From Hydnum rufescens UP504 (taxonomy: Eukaryota > Basidiomycota > Agaricomycetes > Cantharellales > Hydnaceae): DNA of 64,000 nucleotides. Each line of letters starts with the position of its first letter. Positions within the stretch are counted from its first letter, which is position 1. The stretch is taken from the NCBI GenBank assembly GCA_014904985.1, contig MU128931.1, positions 62,001-126,000 of the forward strand. The letters run 5' to 3'. The notes below the pieces were generated by a model. It ran no database searches, was not told the origin of the DNA, and saw only the letters and a list, made by a program, of their open reading frames with translations. Positions 48,214 to 50,229 of this stretch are shown here, piece after piece. The position numbers and the translations under genes are program-made.

Positions 48214-50229
<2,016 letters not shown>

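Follow-up and report, generated by a model that had tools for sequence, protein, structure and literature searches.

A very probable four-nucleotide coding exon in the glycine-rich loop of a Fus3/Kss1-type MAP kinase gene of Hydnum rufescens

Exons of a few nucleotides have been described in both fungi and plants. The CYP621A P450 genes of Fusarium contain a 1-nt exon, reported with 20 orthologues and 18 SRA reads, and nearly all database transcripts were described as wrong at this exon (Nelson and Syed 2026, PMC12940212). In plants, 1-nt exons are reported from APC11 and VPS55, and RECQ3 represents, within the microexons of ≤15 nt treated there, a 4-nt class (cluster 5: size 4, phase 2); the same source describes microexons as often absent from annotation and argues that their size leaves no room for processing the two neighbouring introns simultaneously (PMC8831610). 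Microexons have also been reported in the P450 genes of Phanerochaete chrysosporium, with a shortest reported size of 6 bp (PMC1184071), and Xlr2 of Trichoderma has a 20-nt switch-like microexon that is glucose-dependent (PMC11121469). Searches of the open-licence PMC literature listed no paper whose title or abstract reports a fungal MAPK gene with an exon of 4 nt (or 4 bp).

Here we analyzed 64,000 nt of the Hydnum rufescens UP504 genome (hereafter the window), located on contig C23 of the 63.2-Mb assembly (539 contigs) that was used for the genome searches. The window carries a predicted MAP kinase gene in which four nucleotides, GCCT (48518..48521), appear to stand as an exon of their own. 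We put at roughly 0.9 the probability that GCCT serves as a 4-nt coding exon, used constitutively, in a gene for a Fus3/Kss1-type MAP kinase, and that its two flanking introns are removed singly.

The MAP kinase gene and its split loop

Using splice sites and homology, we modelled a MAP kinase gene of 14 exons on the forward strand (48214..50229, stop included), encoding 383 aa with no internal stop anywhere in the model. The exons measure 103, 38, 4, 82, 70, 51, 10, 208, 46, 26, 213, 88, 66, and 147 nt, and the introns range from 52 to 87 nt. The predicted product is a Fus3/Kss1/ERK-type MAP kinase. Its nearest solved structures are FUS3, the top PDB match (E 9.5e-137), and ERK2, whose matches rank after FUS3 (from E 5.7e-126), both with a 388-aa model as query. 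The TEY activation motif is present in the alignment, DFG is intact in the alignment with relatives, and Pfam Pkinase (PF00069) matches the protein that includes GCCT with 206 bits; the Gly-rich loop is found in the kinase domain under the GCCT model only. An NCBIfam scan of the kinase returned prokaryote-type kinase models only, all under the cut-off. Intron 8 has two in-frame acceptors, 49300 and 49315, lying 15 nt apart. The first would insert VPPSR right behind the DFGLAR stretch (388 aa), and the second agrees with the relatives, which lack these five extra residues (383 aa). The 388-aa model served for the PDB search, the first protein search, the comparison with the closest paralogue (L061), and the tree; the loop is unaffected by the change from 49300 to 49315.

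Elsewhere in the window, a 629-aa ORF on the reverse strand (22754-24643) has only four listed relatives with an E value of 0.001 or lower, the best at 67% identity, suggestive of a fungal lineage with sparse sampling. Three long ORFs on the forward strand (2995-7998) resemble, judging by eye, an eIF4G-type translation factor.

In the model of the kinase gene, the Gly-rich loop is assembled from consecutive features of the forward strand. Exon 2 (48397..48434, 38 nt) ends with ...GGAGAAGGC, which encodes the GEG of the loop, and is followed by intron 2 (48435..48517, 83 nt, GTGAGC...TTTAG) in phase 0 at GEG|A. The microexon GCCT (48518..48521, 4 nt) supplies the Ala codon and the first base of the Tyr codon in GEGAYG. 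Intron 3 (48522..48585, 64 nt, GTAAGC...TTTAG) then lies in phase 1 inside the Tyr codon, and exon 4 (48586..48667, 82 nt), with ATGGCATCG at its start, begins AT|GGC ATC, the remainder of the Tyr codon followed by GIVCSA. The first-pass annotation of this DNA had drawn attention to TTTAG|GCCT|GTAAGC inside a 151-nt gap. Its placement is exact (tttag ends at 48517, GCCT spans 48518-48521, and gtaagc runs from 48522), and the gap (48435-48585) does measure 151 nt. A direct join of 48434 to 48586 breaks the frame, as had been noted, with a stop after 64 codons, and insertion of GCCT yields the expected GEGAYGIVCSA, the 14-exon model then reading through.

The spliced mRNA of the GCCT model is predicted to read GGC-GCCT-ATGGC, and its loop junction would carry GGCGCCTATGGC. 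Skipping of GCCT is predicted to give the junction GGC|ATGGC (GGCATGGCATCG), and retention of the 83-nt intron 2 would shift the frame, 83 not being a multiple of three. Taking a microexon as an internal exon of ≤15 nt, GCCT is a tiny coding segment between a canonical AG and a canonical GT, and it is needed for the frame and the conserved motif together, since only 1 of 35 in-frame joins gives GEGAYG. Conserved exon boundaries in orthologues are usual for microexons and are not required by definition.

The reading frame also bears on the idea of a stwintron or of recursive splicing, whereby the 151 nt would leave in two steps with no internal bases kept. The gap is intron-sized and holds two internal splice-site pairs, in keeping with such an arrangement, but the GGC|ATGGC left behind is frameshifted, with its stop after 64 codons. 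We rejected both forms: no working frame exists once the whole 151 nt are gone, and a recursive (zero-length) splice site would place GT directly after AG, where we found 4 nt between them. This explanation is extremely improbable. Only slightly less so is an assembly error, in which bases were lost or altered at the junction and the true gene has one intron there, as its paralogue L061 does. The single intron of L061 speaks for an error of this kind; however, it would have to affect four bases precisely at the junction and to leave, by coincidence, a well-placed AG|GCCT|GT with top flanking sites, and the remaining gene model is open.

Alternative joins, chance, and splice-site strength

We searched the region for joins between GT or GC donors (48400-48519) and AG acceptors (48440-48639), with introns of ≥40 nt and, in two-intron solutions, exons of ≤40 nt. 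The search gave 35 in-frame, stop-free joins, 19 with a single intron and 16 with two, and GEGAYG came from the GCCT model alone. The 19 single-intron joins and 15 of the 16 two-intron solutions were rejected on the grounds that none of them restores GEGAYG. The initial proposal, in which four nucleotides form an exon and complete the Gly-rich loop of this MAP kinase, has strong backing at the level of the sequence. GCCT is, however, not the sole means of keeping the frame, given the 19 single-intron joins.

The weight of the motif can be judged from 20,000 shuffled versions of the gap that kept its dinucleotide content and both ends. Some in-frame exon of ≤30 nt was available in 10,969 of the 20,000 shuffled gaps, and frame rescue alone therefore carries no meaning. 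A loop of the form GEG[AGST][YFH]G was found in 404/20,000 shuffled gaps and exactly GEGAYGIV in 32/20,000. With a splice-site filter, which was set knowing the real sites, the counts were 11/20,000 and 1/20,000, respectively.

Splice sites were scored with a matrix built from 20 other introns (11 from the kinase gene and 9 from its paralogue L061), all with GT donors. Within 48400-48660, acceptor 48517 was the best of 13 AGs and donor 48522 the best of 12 GTs, and both ranks were unchanged in an earlier matrix. The outer sites ranked lower: acceptor 48585 was second of the 13 AGs in the corrected matrix (third in the earlier one), and donor 48435 was third of the 12 GTs with a moderate score of 2.8, 4 of the 20 training donors being lower. 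An AG followed by a GT within 1-10 nt occurred in 6 of the 156 AG/GT pairs of this region. When donor and acceptor scores were summed, intron 2 reached 9.1, beating 13/20 training introns, and intron 3 reached 12.0, beating 16/20. A YTRAY branch-point-like motif was not found in intron 3, and it is likewise absent from 8/20 training introns of the earlier matrix.

The strongest rival join is a single intron of 129 nt on the forward strand (48457..48585, donor CCG|GTCAAC), which could account for most of the mRNA or for a minor isoform only. It is in frame and stop-free and would add six extra loop residues, its mRNA reading GGC, then GTGAGCATCC, then ATGGC. With a score of 8.1, the highest of the 19 single-intron joins, it beats 6/20 training introns and looks like a usable intron of average-to-weak score. 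It would nevertheless spoil a loop that reads GEGAYG in 124 and GEGGYG in 1 of 125 listed relatives, and it lowers the Pkinase match from 206 to 192.5 bits, the match beginning only past the loop. At 129 nt, this intron would also exceed all 11 introns of the gene outside the gap (maximum 87 nt), and it would bypass both the top acceptor and donor of the region and the GEG|A intron position shared with L061. Together these points make it decidedly unlikely.

Three further single-intron joins are in frame, and we regard them as very improbable. The first uses donor 48435 and acceptor 48569 (48435..48569, forward strand, 135 nt) and would add four loop residues, its mRNA carrying GGCACCTCTCTC. 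The other two have GC donors: 48433-48585 would produce GEDGIVCSA, a shortened loop, and 48439-48585 would produce GEGVNG, with loop length unchanged. In favor of the GC donors, 48433-48585 scores 6.8, second to 48457-48585 among the single-intron joins, despite a matrix trained on GT donors only, and GC-AG introns seem to occur in this genome, L061 having a GCAAGT donor. However, acceptor 48569 scores -1.7, under all 20 training acceptors (-1.2 in the earlier matrix, above 1/20), and the summed score of 48435-48569 is 1.1, beating 1/20 training introns. Donor 48439 scored -13.6 in the earlier matrix, a value that is partly an artefact of GT-only training. Pkinase falls to 195 bits with 48435-48569 and to 194 bits with 48433-48585, and none of these joins gives the loop of the relatives. 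Splice-site strength does not by itself dispose of a single-intron product, and it is thus strength together with the loop that decides for the GCCT model. Automatic gene prediction might settle on a rival join because this spares it the 4-nt exon.

Relatives, paralogues, and the origin of intron 3

The loop expected in this kinase was taken from 125 different MAPK relatives, the union of the best 120 of 7953 and the best 120 of 7964 matches in two protein searches. We take the named relatives to be basidiomycetes, mostly mushroom-forming Agaricomycetes, plus one Puccinia (P0001). GEGAYG was present in 124 of these 125 proteins and GEGGYG in one (P0066). The 120 relatives from the first search were aligned and had no indel within the loop, and for the five additional relatives the check was confined to the presence of the motif. 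The strings GEGTSL, TSLDLDG, and GEGVNG occurred in none of the 125 listed relatives. As relatives were ranked by score, badly predicted proteins tend to be missing, and the list shows the expected motif rather than the failure rate of gene models. The earlier expectation that this gene is probably misannotated wherever it occurs found no support: 125/125 listed relatives contain GEGAYG or GEGGYG, and L061 has a single intron there, without a microexon. No annotated protein for the locus itself appeared among the matches listed, the best of which reached 84% over the whole alignment and up to 86% locally.

Two of the relatives have unusual architectures. P0002, from Rhizoctonia solani, contains a tandem duplicated stretch with the loop present twice, due either to a faulty gene model or to duplication of an exon. 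P0001, from Puccinia striiformis, is 622 aa long and consists of a partial MAPK and a more complete one in series, perhaps two adjacent genes fused by the predictor. Both were excluded from the tree as oddly built.

One relative, P0023 (375 aa, from a 1398-nt contig), has a loop that reads GEGAYGIVCSA. From its 1398 nt, it is probably a spliced transcript. This loop fits the GCCT model and says nothing on a microexon in the gene of P0023 itself. A search with P0023 gave the same kind of MAPKs, none nearer than 87% among the matches listed. In a tree of 57 rows, obtained after thinning at 96.5% identity and with the bootstrap not settled, P0023 joined the kinase gene with support 99/92. Two long branches meet at this point, and the grouping may be false.

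The paralogues in the same genome inform on the age of the two introns. The closest of them, L061 (contig C96), has one loop intron at GEG|A, GGC|GTCAGT...TGTAG|GCGTATGG. The position of intron 2 is therefore common to the kinase gene and L061, and intron 3 is missing from L061. Intron 3 is also missing from three other kinases of this genome: in the paralogue L062 (contig C72), the loop intron interrupts the first Gly codon and lies 8 nt upstream of GEG|A; L063 has an uninterrupted loop; and L064 has a single intron in the second Gly codon of the loop and none beyond. With a search that skips very common words, a second copy of intron 3 was not found in the genome, and the 271-nt stretch around it was also single. 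We thus rejected the idea that intron 3 belongs to a family of repeated introners, as the search located it at one genomic place only.

Two other features emerged from the same comparison. A second microexon of the kinase gene, GACGTCTACT (48985..48994, forward strand, 10 nt), was placed from splice sites and alignment and encodes DVY plus the first base of a Leu codon. The paralogue L062 has an exon with identical boundaries (GAAGTATATC), and in L061 the counterpart of this exon is merged into the upstream exon. L061 also contains, at its positions 2587-2651, an apparent GC-AG intron with donor GCAAGT.

Given the GEG|A intron of L061, a second intron was probably added to the kinase gene 4 nt downstream of this position. 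Most likely, intron 3 arose at this distance from the older GEG|A intron on the lineage of the kinase gene, creating the microexon. This direction of intron change is the simplest reading of a comparison among own-genome paralogues, which stops short of proving polarity.

Predicted splicing and comparison with known systems

Introns 2 and 3, both short and canonical, would each be recognized across the intron (intron definition) and spliced out one after the other. Successive removal is presumed, since four nucleotides offer no space for the two sets of splicing factors together. The same mRNA would result whether intron 2 or intron 3 left first, and the spliced product would restore the ATP-binding loop GEGAYG. 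We infer splicing in vivo, constitutive use of the exon, and ordered removal of the two introns. The first-pass annotation had considered 4 nt too small for many exon-definition models. This objection would lose its force here, since the exon lies between short canonical introns (83 and 64 nt) and splicing one at a time would suffice. Skipping of GCCT, with its 64-codon product, or retention of intron 2 would be possible off-states. We consider it very unlikely that regulated splicing around the 4-nt exon would control how much active MAPK this duplicate gene supplies. Were this the case, use of donor 48457 or acceptor 48569 would give a kinase in frame but disrupted in its ATP loop, which could even yield a catalytically dead partner of the MAPK.

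If confirmed by RNA, GCCT would be a clear-cut case of a 4-nt exon in a basidiomycete signalling kinase, and the single GEG|A intron of L061 would show its likely earlier state. The gene would then offer a compact case of how ultra-short exons may arise, with a second intron placed near an old one. It would also be of use in testing gene callers and read aligners. Annotation software could easily miss a 4-nt exon. The GCCT exon is very probably real, yet ultra-short exons are already known. Our understanding of splicing would be unchanged, 1-nt exons having been published for fungi and plants (PMC12940212, PMC8831610).

Among the described systems, the CYP621A exon of Fusarium offers a close parallel, as both exons are fungal, complete a conserved motif, and were inferred via the frame and a relative, which in the CYP621A account is intronless (PMC12940212). 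The Fusarium exon differs in being 1 nt long, in an ascomycete P450 gene, and backed by orthologues and reads, whereas GCCT is 4 nt long, in a basidiomycete MAP kinase gene, and predicted from genomic sequence. The RECQ3 class has the same size of 4 nt but was described in plants, in another gene, and was modelled across species with RNA-seq (PMC8831610); the GCCT exon belongs to a fungal MAPK. The P450 genes of Phanerochaete chrysosporium share with the kinase gene a basidiomycete host, small introns, and very short exons, and differ in gene family and in a shortest exon of 6 bp (PMC1184071). The exon of Xlr2, missing from the JGI gene model, resembles GCCT as a fungal microexon within a functional domain; it differs in its 20 nt and its glucose dependence (PMC11121469), whereas regulation of GCCT is purely hypothetical. 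Finally, the kinase gene shares with the Fus3/Kss1/ERK MAP kinases, including basidiomycete entries named Kpp2 and Pmk1, near full-length homology, TEY, and GEGAYG. Unlike the others, it lies on a long branch and has its loop split over three exons.
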